Positions 23,225-30,363 of a stretch of DNA of 64,000 bases are shown piece by piece (the first letter of the stretch is position 1; every line of letters begins with the position of its first letter). Source of the stretch: Candidatus Heimdallarchaeota archaeon (GTDB taxonomy: Archaea > Asgardarchaeota > Heimdallarchaeia > Hodarchaeales > Hodarchaeaceae); assembly GCA_019057635.1 (NCBI GenBank), contig DXJL01000104.1, positions 43,512 to 107,511 on the forward strand, in the 5' to 3' direction. The position numbers and the translations under genes are program-made. The notes under the pieces are model-generated. The model did no database searches. It saw nothing but the letters and a program-made list of their open reading frames with translations, and was not told the origin of the DNA.

Positions 23225-25606
23225 GTGTACTGTCAAATCATGATAAATGGTGTGGTTCAAGGTATCGGATTCCGACCATTCGTCTACAATCTTGCTGTAA
23301 AACACAAATTGTTGGGATTTGTCCTCAATAGAGGAGACGCGGGAGTAGAAATACAAATAAAAGGATCAAGAGAGCAGATAAACACATTTATTTATGAACT
23401 ACAGCATAATAAACCTGCTCTTGCTAGATATGAAAAATTTGAATCTGTTTTAGACTTTGAAGCTATAGATGTACAGAATTTTGATAGTTTTCGAATTGCT
23501 AAAAGCACGTTAACTCGTGGGAATGAAGGATCATATATTCCCCCAGATTTACCGATATGTGACAAATGTATGGACGAAATGGGATTTGATCCTCGAAGAA
23601 TTAATTACCCATTTACATCATGTGTGGACTGTGGTCCAAGGTATTCTGTTATTACCTCCTTACCTTATGATAGGCCTAGAACTGTAATGGATGAATTTCC
23701 ATTATGTTCCAAGTGCTTAGCAGAATATACTAATCCAAGCGATAGACGGTTTCATGCTCAAACAACCTGTTGCTGGGATTGCGGACCTCAATACCAACTA
23801 CTAGATAATAAGGGGAATCTAGTACTTTCACCTGAAGAATTCAGGAGAAAGGGGAGTTTACCGTCAAAACTTCTTAATGAAGGCAAGATAATCGCAATTA
23901 AAGGAATTGGCGGTACTCATATTGCATGTAGAACATTGAGTGATGACCCCATCTTAAAGATACGTGATTGGAAAGGTGCCAGAGGAGAAAAACCCTTTGC
24001 AGTAATGTCTAAAAATCGACAAACTACCCAACAATTCGCTCATTGCTCAAAACTTGAAGCAGAATATCTTAATACCCACATCAGACCAATTCTACTTTTA
24101 AATAAAAATGACAAATACTCTTTATCGAAGCATATCTCACCAAATTTACACAATATAGGTGTGTTATTTCCGTATGCGGGGATACACATTACATTATTTG
24201 AGGAGATAAATGATCCAGCGTTAGTGATGACTTCTGGTAACCCCTCCAACTTACCGATACTAATTGAAAATGATCAAATCCAAAAAAACCTGTCTTCTAT
24301 CGTAGATTACTTTTTATTACATGATAGACAAATCTTCCAACGTATTGATGATAGTGTATTACGCCTTCATACATTCAATGACCATAAATATCCATTAATT
24401 ATCCGGAGAAGTAGAGGGTATGTTCCTGAACCAATATCCCTGCCTTGGAAGAACATACATCCGACAGTGATAACGTTAGGAGCAGAAATGCATTCTGTTG
24501 GTTCTATTGGAGTAGGTAATAGAATTTTTCCAACTCAACATATTGGTCACCTTAGTACGTTAGAAAATATAGAATTTCTCAAATCCAGCTTAATACATAT
24601 GAAATCTTTACTCGGAGTTGATAAAATTCAAGGTATTGGCGGCGATTTACACCCACAGTTCTCTTCTACTGCTTTGGGAGAGGAATGGGCTGAAAAAAAC
24701 GGAATAAAGTTTTACCAATTTCAACATCATTATGCCCATTTAAGCGCTTTAGCCGTTGATGCAGGTGTGAGTCCTGAAGATAACATTATTTGTGCAACGT
24801 TAGATGGTACAGGCTATGGAACTGATGGAACTATATGGGGAGGAGAAATATTAATGGGGAATTTCTCAGATTTCAAGAGAGTAGCACATCTAGAACCATT
24901 AACCATCCCTGGAGGGGACTTAGCAATAAAACAACCTCATCGAGGGTTATTAGCATATCTTCTTTCATTCATGTCTCCAGAGGAGATAACTACAAGTATT
25001 AATTCACTTCCCTGGTTAAAATGGATAACTAATTTGGAAAATTATTCTCTATTAATTAGTTCCATGAAGAAGCAGATCAAAACCCAGAATATTCCAAGAC
25101 ATAACATAACCTCTAGTTGTGGTCGTGTTCTCGACATTCTCAGTGTTATGCTTGGTGTGACTAAATATCGTACTTATGAAGGGGAGCCAGCGATAAAACT
25201 TGAATCATTTGCATGGAAAAAGAATAACGATTCAAAGTTAGAACTAGAAATACCATATAGAGAAAATAATCGAGGTGCAATTGAAATTCAGACTAAACAT
25301 CTTTTAAGGGATATTTGGAATAGAATTCAAAAGGATCAGACCAGACATTTATTAGCAGCTGCAGCAGAGAAAGCCCTTGCAAAGACAGTAGCAGAAGTTT
25401 CAATTCTAATGGCGGATAAACATGGCATACACAATATTGGAATGTCTGGGGGAGTGTGCTATAATCAAGCTATATTTTCTGAATTTTATCGAAATATAAT
25501 AAGTGCGGGTAAAAAATACACTTCCATCTATCACAAACAAATCCCATGTGGAGATGGTTGTATATCTATTGGCCAAGTTCCTTTAATCCAAACTAAATTG
25601 ATGTAA
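23225..25606 (+). CDS. hypF: carbamoyltransferase HypF
   Basis: acylphosphatase domain GVVQGIGFRPFVY, zinc fingers CDKCMDE/CVDCGPRYS, YrdC-like, 'FQHHYAHLSALAVDAG'. Confidence 0.95.
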   Translation: MYCQIMINGVVQGIGFRPFVYNLAVKHKLLGFVLNRGDAGVEIQIKGSREQINTFIYELQHNKPALARYEKFESVLDFEAIDVQNFDSFRIAKSTLTRGNEGSYIPPDLPICDKCMDEMGFDPRRINYPFTSCVDCGPRYSVITSLPYDRPRTVMDEFPLCSKCLAEYTNPSDRRFHAQTTCCWDCGPQYQLLDNKGNLVLSPEEFRRKGSLPSKLLNEGKIIAIKGIGGTHIACRTLSDDPILKIRDWKGARGEKPFAVMSKNRQTTQQFAHCSKLEAEYLNTHIRPILLLNKNDKYSLSKHISPNLHNIGVLFPYAGIHITLFEEINDPALVMTSGNPSNLPILIENDQIQKNLSSIVDYFLLHDRQIFQRIDDSVLRLHTFNDHKYPLIIRRSRGYVPEPISLPWKNIHPTVITLGAEMHSVGSIGVGNRIFPTQHIGHLSTLENIEFLKSSLIHMKSLLGVDKIQGIGGDLHPQFSSTALGEEWAEKNGIKFYQFQHHYAHLSALAVDAGVSPEDNIICATLDGTGYGTDGTIWGGEILMGNFSDFKRVAHLEPLTIPGGDLAIKQPHRGLLAYLLSFMSPEEITTSINSLPWLKWITNLENYSLLISSMKKQIKTQNIPRHNITSSCGRVLDILSVMLGVTKYRTYEGEPAIKLESFAWKKNNDSKLELEIPYRENNRGAIEIQTKHLLRDIWNRIQKDQTRHLLAAAAEKALAKTVAEVSILMADKHGIHNIGMSGGVCYNQAIFSEFYRNIISAGKKYTSIYHKQIPCGDGCISIGQVPLIQTKLM

Positions 25607-25759
25607 ATTTAAAATTTTTATCATATACTCCCCTATATCACCTCTTTAGGAAAATTTAGTCATGAATAGATTTAAATGTTCAATGTCCTAGAATTTCGTA
25701 GAAAGAGGCTACTGTCTAAATTTATTTTCTTTTATCCGCAATAAAGACGTGAAACTATC

Positions 25760-26335
25760 ATGGTTAACCCAGATGATGAAACAAGATCCTATCAAGATTA
25801 TTTTGAAGAAGTTTTTGATTCACTGTCATTACTTAAATCACAAATAGATACACCGTTAGAAAAGCCTGATGAGGCTTATAAACAATTAGGTACTATAGAA
25901 GATGTTTTAGAAACTCTATTAAACTGGATAAAATTACAGAAAAATGGTTTACGTAATTTTGATACGATTGTCGATTGGGTGAAGAAATTAGCAATCGATT
26001 CCACTTTGACCAAAGATGAAATTCGTAGTCGTTTACGAATTATTGTTCTCCCTCAAGTTGAATCCTTTACGCAGAATCTCACAACCAATGAAAAAAGCGC
26101 ATTAAAGGTTCTTGATGCTGTAAGCAAAAACTTAGAAGCACTACCTGATTTCTTAAAATCTATTCAGCAGAAAAATTTTAAATTATTAACGCTAATTGGT
26201 TATGATCCTCAAACGGGTTCTTCTCAACTTGATTTGATGTTTCAAAATCTCTATCAAGGTCGTTTTAATGATTTTCAAAAAGAGCTAGACCAGTTAAAAG
26301 AGAATCTGATTCCAAGGAAAGATACTTCCGAGTAA
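25760..26335 (+). CDS. helical hypothetical protein (191 aa)
   Basis: ORF track; helical composition; start of + strand cassette. Confidence 0.55.
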   Translation: MVNPDDETRSYQDYFEEVFDSLSLLKSQIDTPLEKPDEAYKQLGTIEDVLETLLNWIKLQKNGLRNFDTIVDWVKKLAIDSTLTKDEIRSRLRIIVLPQVESFTQNLTTNEKSALKVLDAVSKNLEALPDFLKSIQQKNFKLLTLIGYDPQTGSSQLDLMFQNLYQGRFNDFQKELDQLKENLIPRKDTSE

Positions 26336-26484
26336 TTTTTTATTCATTTTTCAATAGATATTAAACCGTTATTTTAAAAAGTAAAATCATCTATATAGAG
26401 ATTAAAACCGAAAGTAATAGTAAATTATTTCGATATTACTTCAAATCATCGTATTTCGTAAAATAAAATAGAGGGTTCAGAACT

Positions 26485-28431
26485 TTGGCCAGTAACAATC
26501 CCAAACTTGCTTTTATAAGAAGTATTGCCCAACAAGCTCGAAGATTGGAACATGAAATTTCCTCTGAAATGAAAAGCAGTGTAAATAAACTTTATTCACG
26601 ACCGAAATCCTACTATACGTTGCAAGATGTAGAAGAAGTCATAGAAAGCTTAAAAGAGAAAATGATTGTTTTAAATAAGGAAGCACATACAGAATTTTCC
26701 AAAAGAGGGATGAAAGACATTGATAATATTGACCTTGTGCAACCAGAGTCAGATTCAACACTTATAGCAAAATCTGAACTTCAAAGATTGCAGAATGAGA
26801 TTGAATCCTTAAGTCAGCAAGCAACAGATTTGTCACCCTTTGAAAAAAAAATTGCCGATTTGGAAATCTTATTAGAAGAAAAAGAAGCAGAAATTTCTCT
26901 TTTAAATTCAAAGACTGGGTTAACATCTGAAAAATATCAAAATCAATTAGAAGAGATAAATCGTATCCAGGAGCTACTTGATGAAGCTCAAAGAGAATTG
27001 AAACAGACAAAATTAGAAAGGGACAAAATTGAAGCGGAGTATGAAGTCATAGGTAATACATTGATGACTACACGTTTAGAAATTGAGGAACTACAGACAG
27101 TAATAGGAAACAAGGATATAGAATTAGAAAACTTGAACTCGGAAGTACAAGTTCTTACTAGTCATGCAGAAGATAATATTATTCTAAAAGAACAGAACAT
27201 TAAGCTAAATGACGAGATAGCAAATCTCAAAACAGTTGTTCAAAATGAAATTGAGAAGGTAAAAAAAGCATCTTCTAAACAATCGGATGATCTGTTAGAG
27301 GATAAAGAAGCTCTGAATTCACAAATTAGAGAAATTAAAATTGCTATGGCTGAATTAGAAGAAAAAAATCAAATATTGGAGAAAGAGAATGAAGATCTTT
27401 TAATTGATTCAGGAGAAACGACTGAAGAAGCCTTAACTGTTAGAAAAGAATTATCTGAATCTAGAGTTTTGCTTGACCAGAAGATCAAGGAAAATGAAGA
27501 CCTGAATCGTCGATTAAGCGATCTTGAAAATCAGGTTGAATTGCAAGAAAAAGAGAAAGTCGAATTTAAACAAAAACTTGCATCAAGTGAATCTTCTAGG
27601 GAAAAAGTGGAAGGCAATTTGACACATACACAACAAGAAATGGACGATAAGGATGCGCTTATTGAAAAAATTCAATTGCGACTTCAAGAAGCAAAAGAAG
27701 CAGAAGATAAATTACGTACTGAAAATCGTGCTTTTGTAACTTCAACAGAAGACTTACAAGTGGAAATCCAAGGTAAAAATGAACGAATTGACGTAATAGA
27801 AAAAGCTTTGAATGAAGCCCGAGAAAATCTAGCTAATTTGAAAATACATTTTGAAAAACAAAAGTCTTCTATACTCGAGCAGGAGACCCAACTCAAAACA
27901 AAAGACTTGGAAGTAGTTGAAGCAATGAAGGAATTAGACACCATCAGAGAGAAACATGAAAATTTGAGGGAGGAGATTGATGGTTCAAGAACAAAGAGTG
28001 CGGCTTTTGAGCGACAAAAAGAGACATACGATATAGAAATTAAGAGTCTAGGACTCCAGCTTGCTGAAGCGAATAAGGAAAATAAAAGATTAGATAAGAA
28101 AATTAATTCGTTCAAGAATGAAATCACAAAGAGTAATGGGGAAAATGATGCTCTTAATCGTCAGGTAACAAAACTGAAAGAGGAATCTGAACAGTATAAA
28201 CAAGCTGTCGAAGTTCTGAAAATAAATCTGTCCAAAAATCCAAAATATGCGATACTCTTTGTTCTCCAAGATATCCAACAGGCTTCAGTGGAAGAATTGG
28301 CTAAAACTGTCGCAATTCAACTTGTATTTGCAGAACGTCTGATGAAAGAATTAGAATCTGAAGGATGGATTGATTACAATGTAGATCGAGCACAAGTCAC
28401 CCTGAAAAGAAGTTTCTTAGATCTTGAATAA
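26485..28431 (+). CDS. large coiled-coil protein with C-terminal winged-helix-like domain (648 aa)
   Basis: continuous heptad-rich region; tail 'QQASVEELAKTVAIQLVFAERLMKELESEGWIDYNVDRAQVTL'. Confidence 0.75.
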   Translation: MASNNPKLAFIRSIAQQARRLEHEISSEMKSSVNKLYSRPKSYYTLQDVEEVIESLKEKMIVLNKEAHTEFSKRGMKDIDNIDLVQPESDSTLIAKSELQRLQNEIESLSQQATDLSPFEKKIADLEILLEEKEAEISLLNSKTGLTSEKYQNQLEEINRIQELLDEAQRELKQTKLERDKIEAEYEVIGNTLMTTRLEIEELQTVIGNKDIELENLNSEVQVLTSHAEDNIILKEQNIKLNDEIANLKTVVQNEIEKVKKASSKQSDDLLEDKEALNSQIREIKIAMAELEEKNQILEKENEDLLIDSGETTEEALTVRKELSESRVLLDQKIKENEDLNRRLSDLENQVELQEKEKVEFKQKLASSESSREKVEGNLTHTQQEMDDKDALIEKIQLRLQEAKEAEDKLRTENRAFVTSTEDLQVEIQGKNERIDVIEKALNEARENLANLKIHFEKQKSSILEQETQLKTKDLEVVEAMKELDTIREKHENLREEIDGSRTKSAAFERQKETYDIEIKSLGLQLAEANKENKRLDKKINSFKNEITKSNGENDALNRQVTKLKEESEQYKQAVEVLKINLSKNPKYAILFVLQDIQQASVEELAKTVAIQLVFAERLMKELESEGWIDYNVDRAQVTLKRSFLDLE

Positions 28432-28471: not shown

Positions 28472-29332
28472 TTGATGCAAGTACAAATGATTCTTAGCAA
28501 GTGTAAAGAGAATTTAGTTGATTTAGATGATCACATCATTCTTATTTTGAAGGCTATTGATCAAAATATCAGTATTATTGTAGAAGGAGAATCAGGAACA
28601 GGGAAAACAGAACTAGCAAAAACCATTGCTTTTGCCCTTGAAAGGCCATTTTACAGAGTTGATGGAGATGAAAATCTAACAATTACACAACTTCGTGGTT
28701 GGTTTGATCCGTCTTTAGTCATCGAATCAGGTTTTGGAGAAAAATCTTTCATACCAGGTCCTCTAACATTGGCAATGTCAAAAGGAGGATTATTCTTCTT
28801 TAATGAAGTCAATCGCGCGCCAAGTGAATCAATTAATGGAGCACTTTCTGCGATGGATTCCAGCGAAAGATCCATTGAAATTCCACAATATATGAATATT
28901 AAGGCAAGAGACGATTTTTATACAATTTTTACCCTTAATCCTTCAGAATATATTGGTACTAATCCGTTACCTGAAGCATTTTTTGATAGATGCATTAGAA
29001 TCCATTTAACACATAAAACTGGAAAAATTGCAGAGGAAATAGTCAAATTAAGGACTAATTGTGCTGATGATGACTTAATACACAAATGTGTATTATTCAC
29101 TGAAAAAACTCGTTCCAATACTGATTTCGAACGTGGTGCAAGTATTCGAGCAGCTATTCAGTTAACGCAATTATTGATGAATGAAGAAAACCAAGATAAA
29201 CACATAATTCAAGCGATCAATGCAGTTTACTCTGGTAAAATTAAACTACAACCTGATATTTCTCGATCAGTCGAAAAGTGTTTACATGAGATAGCTGACG
29301 AGGTTTTTTTTGAGAATAGACCAAAAAACTAG
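28472..29332 (+). CDS. MoxR-type AAA+ ATPase
   Basis: Walker A GESGTGKTE; Walker B-like FFFNEVNRAP; sensor region TLNPSEYIGTNPLPEAFFDRC. Confidence 0.88.
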   Translation: MMQVQMILSKCKENLVDLDDHIILILKAIDQNISIIVEGESGTGKTELAKTIAFALERPFYRVDGDENLTITQLRGWFDPSLVIESGFGEKSFIPGPLTLAMSKGGLFFFNEVNRAPSESINGALSAMDSSERSIEIPQYMNIKARDDFYTIFTLNPSEYIGTNPLPEAFFDRCIRIHLTHKTGKIAEEIVKLRTNCADDDLIHKCVLFTEKTRSNTDFERGASIRAAIQLTQLLMNEENQDKHIIQAINAVYSGKIKLQPDISRSVEKCLHEIADEVFFENRPKN

Positions 29333-29354
29333 AAAAGCGGGACGGAGAGCCCGC
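29322..29354 (+). promoter_or_regulatory. putative -1 programmed ribosomal frameshift signal
   Basis: zero frame CCA AAA AAC TAG (heptamer A_AAA_AAC), 7-nt spacer, stem GCGGG (29337-29341)/CCCGC (29350-29354). Confidence 0.5.
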
Positions 29355-29496
29355 GGTATCAGAACACTCAATTAAATTATCTCACCCTACTCATCAGTAT
29401 GATCTGATTGAAACTATCCTTGAATATCGACTTCAGCAAAAGCTTGATACTTCGAAAACTATCGAATTTACAGAACAAGCACTCAAATCGCGAAAT

Positions 29497-30363
29497 TTGC
29501 ATGCAGTTGAAATACTAGCTGAATCATATCCTCACGTCGTGGCAGACGTCATACAGATGGAAAATTTCGACTCTAATCTTGTTTTAGAATCAAAAAGTCT
29601 AGTTTTTCAAATAAAAGATCATCTAGATCCCTCAATTGAAAAAAAATTGATGCAAATACTAATCCCAAGGATGATAAAACACTCTGAATCATTATTTCAT
29701 AGCATCGATCGTTCAAAATATCCTATCCGAATACCATATATGCCAGGGAGAAAATGGAATGTCGAAAAAACTGTAATGAAATTCTTGGTTTCAGGGGATA
29801 CAAATTTAAACTACTCACATGTCGTTTGTGAGGAACGAAAAGAAAGGAAAGCAACAGTAGTCCTCCTAATTGATAAGAGTCACTCCGTTATTCAGCACTT
29901 GAGATTTATTATTATTTCAGCAATAATATTCAGTTTAGCATTACAAAATAAAGATATAAGTATAATTAGTTTTGACACACGACCATCTGTAGTTAAGAGT
30001 ATGAAAGATAGGCGCGACTCAAGTACTCAAATTGTGAAAAAACTGATAAAACTTAGCTCAGGTGGAAAAACTGATATTTATTCTGCTCTGTTAAAAGCTC
30101 AAAAAGAATTTTCTACTGTCATAAGCAGAAAAAAAACACTCGTACTGATATCCGACTTATTAGCAACGTCTGGAGAGGACTTTTTACCTATTTTAAGAAC
30201 ATTTAACGATGTTAGGATCATTGTAACACCTAGGCGTCAGACTTTACAACTGACAAAACCTCTACTCGGCCATTTACGCAGAATGAATAATGTCAAATTA
30301 TTTCTCTTACCCGAAAATGAACGATTAATCCTTAATATGTTAGAAAAGGTTTTATTTTTTTAA
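29497..30363 (+). CDS. vWA-domain protein (MoxR partner); coding frame appears to extend upstream to ~29329
   Basis: MIDAS motif DKSHS in 'TVVLLIDKSHSVIQ'; track start is TTG; frame is open from 29320 with no ATG/GTG/TTG before 29497. Confidence 0.8.
   Translation: MHAVEILAESYPHVVADVIQMENFDSNLVLESKSLVFQIKDHLDPSIEKKLMQILIPRMIKHSESLFHSIDRSKYPIRIPYMPGRKWNVEKTVMKFLVSGDTNLNYSHVVCEERKERKATVVLLIDKSHSVIQHLRFIIISAIIFSLALQNKDISIISFDTRPSVVKSMKDRRDSSTQIVKKLIKLSSGGKTDIYSALLKAQKEFSTVISRKKTLVLISDLLATSGEDFLPILRTFNDVRIIVTPRRQTLQLTKPLLGHLRRMNNVKLFLLPENERLILNMLEKVLFF

Follow-up and report, generated by a model that had tools for sequence, protein, structure and literature searches.

How is a vWA protein made when its reading frame has no start codon near the end of the gene that it overlaps? 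The window, by which we mean the whole stretch of 64,000 nucleotides of Candidatus Heimdallarchaeota DNA that was analysed, contains five overlapping tandem ORF pairs, and in the MoxR/vWA pair alone no start codon lies close to the stop of the upstream ORF. A preliminary description, made from the sequence alone, inferred that the ribosome produces both the ATPase alone and an ATPase–vWA fusion. Comparison with other Asgard genomes supports this (the cassette and its −1 offset are kept, and natural fusions exist), while the actual products and the efficiency remain inferred. We hold with high confidence that the locus is one gene with two readings, in which a programmed −1 ribosomal frameshift gives MoxR alone and a MoxR–vWA fusion; there are no transcript, ribosome-profiling or peptide data.

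Architecture of the window locus

The locus has the following features:

28475–29332, + strand: MoxR-type AAA+ ATPase, the 0-frame ORF (Pfam AAA_5 8.2e-18, AAA_3 1.1e-11; Walker A GESGTGKT)
29323–29329, + strand: slippery heptamer A_AAA_AAC in 0-frame phase (sequence reading; 0-frame AGA CCA AAA AAC TAG)
29330–29332, + strand: 0-frame stop TAG, abutting the heptamer (sequence reading)
29330–29336, + strand: 7-nt spacer from heptamer to stem, stop included (sequence reading)
29337–29354, + strand: presumed stimulatory hairpin GCGGG-ACGGAGAG-CCCGC (sequence; 10 distinct congeneric sequences retain the stem)
29332–29496, + strand: start-free stretch from the 0-frame stop to TTG 29497, coding in the vWA frame (codon-position substitutions, identity to relatives)
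29329–30363 (codon phase of 29329), + strand: −1 frame with linker, helical region and CoxE-like vWA domain (Pfam VWA_CoxE 2.3e-10, VWA_2 2.1e-9)

A −1 cassette comprises an X_XXY_YYZ heptamer that lies in the ORF overlap in phase with the 0 frame, an RNA structure 5–9 nt 3′ of the heptamer and a downstream −1 ORF without its own start. The window meets all three (A_AAA_AAC; a GC hairpin after a 7-nt spacer; no start of its own), and some loci of our group B have a later ATG. The heptamer in canonical phase with the stop directly after it, the GCGGG/CCCGC stem 7 nt beyond, and a vWA ORF in the −1 frame that is open from 29320 without ATG, GTG or TTG before 29497 had all been claimed in the preliminary description, and a renewed reading confirms them. 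The −1 frame runs to a stop at 30361–30363. Its first start-like codon, TTG 29497, lies where it had been placed, but it is a mechanical ORF start and not, as it had been called, annotated. The MoxR frame is open from 28454 and may begin at TTG 28472 or at an ATG one codon later (28475). Taken alone, the hairpin is moderate, being short (five GC pairs) with an MFE z of −1.87.

On the minus strand, the hairpin and the TTTTCTAGTTTTTT after it (window 29354–29330) resemble an intrinsic terminator by score. We rejected a minus-strand intrinsic terminator made of hairpin and A-run, as the hairpins of other clades have no T-tract there.

The two proteins form a MoxR/CoxE-type couple: the AAA_3/AAA_5 and VWA_CoxE matches exceed the curated cut-offs, and the MIDAS motif (DxSxS...T...D) is intact, with D183, S185, S187, T249 and D277 invariant in our alignment (A1). 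By inference from NorQD (PMC9976466), they may form a hexameric ATPase ring bound by a vWA protein. An AlphaFold model of the vWA frame, computed from a three-sequence alignment, is poor (mean pLDDT 42.5) and reaches fair confidence only for the helices in residues 20–74; TTG 29497 corresponds to residue 56, where the third helix begins, and we give the model little weight. The best solved-structure matches of both Asgard MoxR proteins (window 28472–29329; L063:1939–2817) are eukaryotic midasin AAA domains (6e-26 for the window protein). A link to midasin was dropped because bacterial MoxR proteins match it even better (4e-33 and 3.5e-40 for two from Rhodococcus); the likeness is a general family property.

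Upstream of MoxR on the same strand (window 23225–28431) lie a HypF-like carbamoyltransferase (23225–25606), a 191-residue protein and a 648-residue coiled-coil protein. A Pfam search gave no match for the 191-residue protein and none over the cut-off for the coiled-coil protein. This gene order is kept in the genus; the neighbours differ in family f3.

Conservation within the genus

The gene is present in 11 of the 12 genomes of the window's genus. Gene copies are 94% identical in Candidatus Heimdallarchaeota B3_Heim and 83% in a Hodarchaeota MAG, and the whole vWA frame is 94% and 83% identical to loci L031 and L032. The preliminary description had named an indel in the A6 homopolymer as the main alternative and had proposed an alignment of related genomes. 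In that alignment all 11 congeners keep the vWA frame at −1, the stop, a slippery A-run ending 0–4 codons before it and the hairpin (GCGGGA...TCCCGC). In ten a canonical heptamer lies no more than three codons from the stop; in the other (L009) an A13 run is found four codons upstream. Because the 11 congeners share the cassette, two of them being single-contig genomes (G006 and G009), the indel is excluded. A homopolymer within a metagenome-assembled genome does invite suspicion of an assembly or sequencing error, or of a decayed gene, but the same offset recurs in 129 loci of independent assemblies, the two single-contig ones included, and codon-level constraint is present on both sides of the junction; we consider either practically ruled out.

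The hairpin stem is almost invariant across the 10 distinct congeneric sequences and occupies codons that are uncommon in neighbouring genes (CGG, 4.7% of Arg; CCC, 10% of Pro). Rare codons beneath a conserved stem point to a constraint at the RNA level. The hairpin alone is only moderate, but conservation among relatives puts the cassette beyond chance; with site, hairpin and shifted frame recurring in 18 families, error or coincidence is very unlikely. A copy resembling those of the window's genus, hairpin included, was also found in a family f26 genome with 11% contamination (L115, G182:C119), probably on a contaminating contig.

MoxR–vWA junctions across Asgard archaea

We examined 142 MoxR–vWA junctions from Asgard genomes; these loci are not phylogenetically independent. 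The vWA frame is at −1 in 129 (18 families, two paralogous clades) and at +1 in eight (seven from genus g5, one from family f23), and five are single fused ORFs. Within three codons of the stop, 116 of the 129 −1 loci have either a canonical heptamer (80) or G_GAU_UUU (36). The remaining 13 are L009, L100 (U_UUU_UUC six codons upstream) and 11 loci with a P-site-slippable U_UUU codon. Among the first 94 shifted loci, 74 carry a canonical heptamer in the last three codons, against 1.3 expected from the in-frame rate in the bodies of the same MoxR ORFs (0.0046 per codon). Compared with the rest of both genes, the RNA 3′ of the stop folds better, with a mean z of −1.63 and 43 of 94 loci in the lowest 5%. 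The heptamer letters vary by lineage (A_AAA_AAC, U_UUU_UUA, A_AAU_UUU, A_AAC_CCU, C_CCU_UUU, G_GGU_UUU); to judge from these sequences, the conserved property is slipperiness and not the letters. In pea enation mosaic virus G_GAU_UUU serves as the shift site, and a stop codon three bases further on has a strong effect on shifting (PMC5009743); the Asgard sites, too, abut a stop.

The same set bears on the possibility that RNA polymerase slips on an A or T run, which would give an mRNA with an extra base and a fusion without any slip of the ribosome. A hairpin with an A-run could act on polymerase, and runs of six to nine identical bases occur at 60 of the 129 junctions. A long homopolymer at the transition, as transcriptional slippage demands, is thus found in the window (A6) but not overall: 69 of the 129 junctions have no run longer than five, and run-poor junctions still keep A_AAU_UUU, A_AAC_CCU, C_CCU_UUU and G_GGU_UUU, which are sensible only for tRNA re-pairing. 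For this reason we regard polymerase slippage as highly unlikely.

In family f3 the orthologous junction reads CGA AAA AAA G, with the stop two to three codons on, followed by GGTGA and a hairpin. Among 17 distinct f3 sequences, five stem pairs have changed on both sides and still pair; the covariation score is 0.338, compared with 0.217 ± 0.020 for shuffled alignments, none of 500 of which reached it, and no more than 0.142 with the partner strand slid. In G029, of family f6, this junction lies within one uninterrupted ORF of 643 codons (CCG AAA AAA CGC), and natural in-frame fusions at the junction occur in G029 and in G171–G174. Family f23 has a single continuous ORF of 668–730 codons in four genomes (L067, L068, L122, L163); in a further f23 genome, G169 (L162), the pair is split into two ORFs at a +1 offset, either through misassembly or because the gene is broken.

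Beyond what had been described before, the frameshift is phylum-wide, and the window's own genome holds a second frameshifted pair (G000:C113). This paralogous MoxR–vWA pair is present in 143 of 232 Asgard genomes. It is likewise shifted to −1, in the window's genus with U_UUU_UUA and the hairpin TCCCGAG/CTCGGGA; elsewhere its heptamer is U_UUU_UUC (f3), A_AAU_UUU (f10, f11 and f18) or G_GAU_UUU (f12, f19 and f26), with A_AAC_CCU, C_CCU_UUU and G_GGU_UUU in further lineages. When a tree is built from the vWA parts, the two pairs come out as fully supported separate groups, and shifted and fused forms are found in both. We identified no strong hairpin in f19, the largest sampled family, where a lone U_UUU slip codon is all that nine of 34 loci offer.

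Genus g5 of family f4 (L126, L130, L134, L144, L177, L194, L195) speaks against a uniform −1 shift. In these seven loci the vWA frame of the paralogous pair is at +1 (or −2), with an invariant TTTTTTCGG and with TTT TTT CGG kept, and the offset needs another mechanism or a separate start. Either a +1 slip (UUU to UUC before CGG) has replaced the −1 shift or the vWA protein starts at its own ATG; both are possible.

Translation of the stretch past the stop

If the vWA ORF were translated separately, with ribosomes reinitiating past the overlapping stop or starting at a non-standard codon, no frameshift would be needed. Some loci offer material for this: f3-A has a Shine-Dalgarno-like AGGTGA past the stop, of which GGTGA is invariant, and an ATG lies about 56–65 nt past the stop in several group B loci and 7–10 nt past it in most g5 loci (three of the first four). 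Yet there is no ATG, GTG or TTG for at least 20 codons in 72 of the 129 −1 loci and for at least 40 codons in 40 of them; extreme cases are L008 and L189, where the first 193 and the first 120 vWA codons, respectively, contain none. Where an ATG does exist, it falls inside conserved protein (F-[R]GRM versus FGRL). Moreover, a single offset combined with a slippery heptamer at the stop in 18 families is not expected of independent genes.

The preliminary description had remarked that the stretch 5′ of TTG 29497 reads like protein, and the substitution pattern agrees. Over the first 54 codons past the stop, differences among five congeners at codon positions 1/2/3 number 95/62/225, and two further independent groups give 390/145/559 and 232/69/750. 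Because the differences are spread so unevenly over codon positions, the stretch between the 0-frame stop and the first start is, on this comparative evidence, evolving as protein in the vWA frame.

MoxR–vWA pairs with conventional starts look different, which we count in favour of frameshifting: a third pair in the window's genome has an ATG 8 nt past the stop, and a Streptomyces pair has a 4-nt start/stop overlap. Taken together, separate translation appears decidedly unlikely, and we retain the −1 frameshift as the explanation of the locus.

Outside the Asgard archaea the comparison was restricted to plasmid-borne MoxR genes. Two Rhodococcus plasmid pairs (L149:3400–3520 and L151:3370–3540) are in frame with one TGA between them (CCC GGT TGA AGA GC). 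The second has no annotated start for 48 codons, though the region resembles that of the first. Readthrough of UGA in Rhodococcus may be a parallel route to both products.

Discussion

The cassette, its conservation, the coding −1 frame and the natural single-ORF fusions are observed, and on them we base an inferred mechanism of tandem tRNA slippage that the hairpin, and possibly the stop next to the heptamer, would stimulate; the occurrence and the rate of the shift are likewise inferred. Most ribosomes would translate the MoxR AAA+ ORF and terminate at the TAG. Some would be delayed at A_AAA_AAC by the hairpin, perhaps also by the stop entering the A-site, and would slip back by one base, whereupon both tRNAs would re-pair and reading would continue in the vWA frame. 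The product would read ...RPK(N/K)LEKRDGEPA... across the junction, giving a MoxR–vWA fusion of about 630 residues.

Set-ratio −1 shifting of an AAA+ subunit has a precedent in dnaX, where one mRNA yields two forms of a ring subunit; there the shifted product is the shorter one, whereas in the Asgard genes it is the longer. The Asgard locus follows the logic of the chlD frameshift already known, although its AAA+/vWA family is another one. In fs-chlD, a −1 frameshift within the Mg/Co-chelatase gene chlD gives an AAA+ subunit and an AAA+–vWA subunit from one gene (Antonov 2013 PMC3711429; Kuznetsov 2022 PMC9227772); such cassettes are found in bacteria and methanogenic archaea, and 10–63% shifting was measured in E. 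coli (PMC3711429, PMC9227772). Both systems have a 0-frame AAA+ protein, a −1 extension containing a vWA domain, a slippery A-run and fused homologues elsewhere. The Asgard genes differ in being MoxR/CoxE-like, in using many heptamers and in occurring in a genome without detected CobN/ChlH. Chance convergence and deep common descent are both possible. An identity as ChlD/BchD chelatase was rejected (27.9 bits against a TIGR02031 cut-off of 499.55). The window's own genome (91.6% complete) has no match over the ChlD/BchD family cut-off and no large chelatase subunit CobN/ChlH (PF02514), which was found in five control genomes.

A cellular −1 frameshift is known from the α-L-fucosidase gene fucA1 of Saccharolobus solfataricus (A_AAA_AAT plus stem-loop), which a 2021 review gave as the single reported archaeal case, with chlD as a further candidate (PMC8211752). 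The Asgard genes resemble it in being archaeal cellular genes with a slippery heptamer and a stem-loop. However, the fucA1 shift yields one functional enzyme and is limited to S. solfataricus, whereas both Asgard products are whole domains and the system is phylum-wide. We found no earlier report of a MoxR–vWA frameshift or of frameshifting in an Asgard cellular gene, in literature searched mostly without subscription journals.

The most likely purpose, which we infer by analogy, is to set the ratio of ATPase to ATPase–vWA in a hexamer with one or a few vWA arms, as in NorQ6–NorD1 (PMC9976466). In NorQ/NorD and CbbQ/CbbO a MoxR AAA+ hexamer has one ring-binding vWA partner (PMC9976466, PMC13036017); these are two separate genes and proteins without a frameshift, whereas the Asgard vWA domain would be covalently attached to the ATPase subunit. 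Because there is one vWA protein per NorQD hexamer, shifting by about every sixth ribosome would fit a one-arm ring; this rate is an inference and no measurement. The frameshift may have been present in the last common Asgard ancestor, before duplication into the two pairs, and kept since to hold the plain and the vWA-bearing subunits of a mixed hexamer at a fixed ratio; the slippery sequences, the hairpins and even, in g5, the shift direction would then have been replaced while the two-product outcome was retained. We put this at an even chance.

For annotation, the frameshift accounts for the truncated vWA protein and supplies the cloning boundaries of the real product. One orthologous gene pair with variable heptamers in 18 families is also a natural experiment on the slipperiness of the archaeal ribosome, in the archaeal relatives of eukaryotes, the lineage closest to them. 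Finally, the frameshift makes the subunit ratio of MoxR–vWA machines directly testable.
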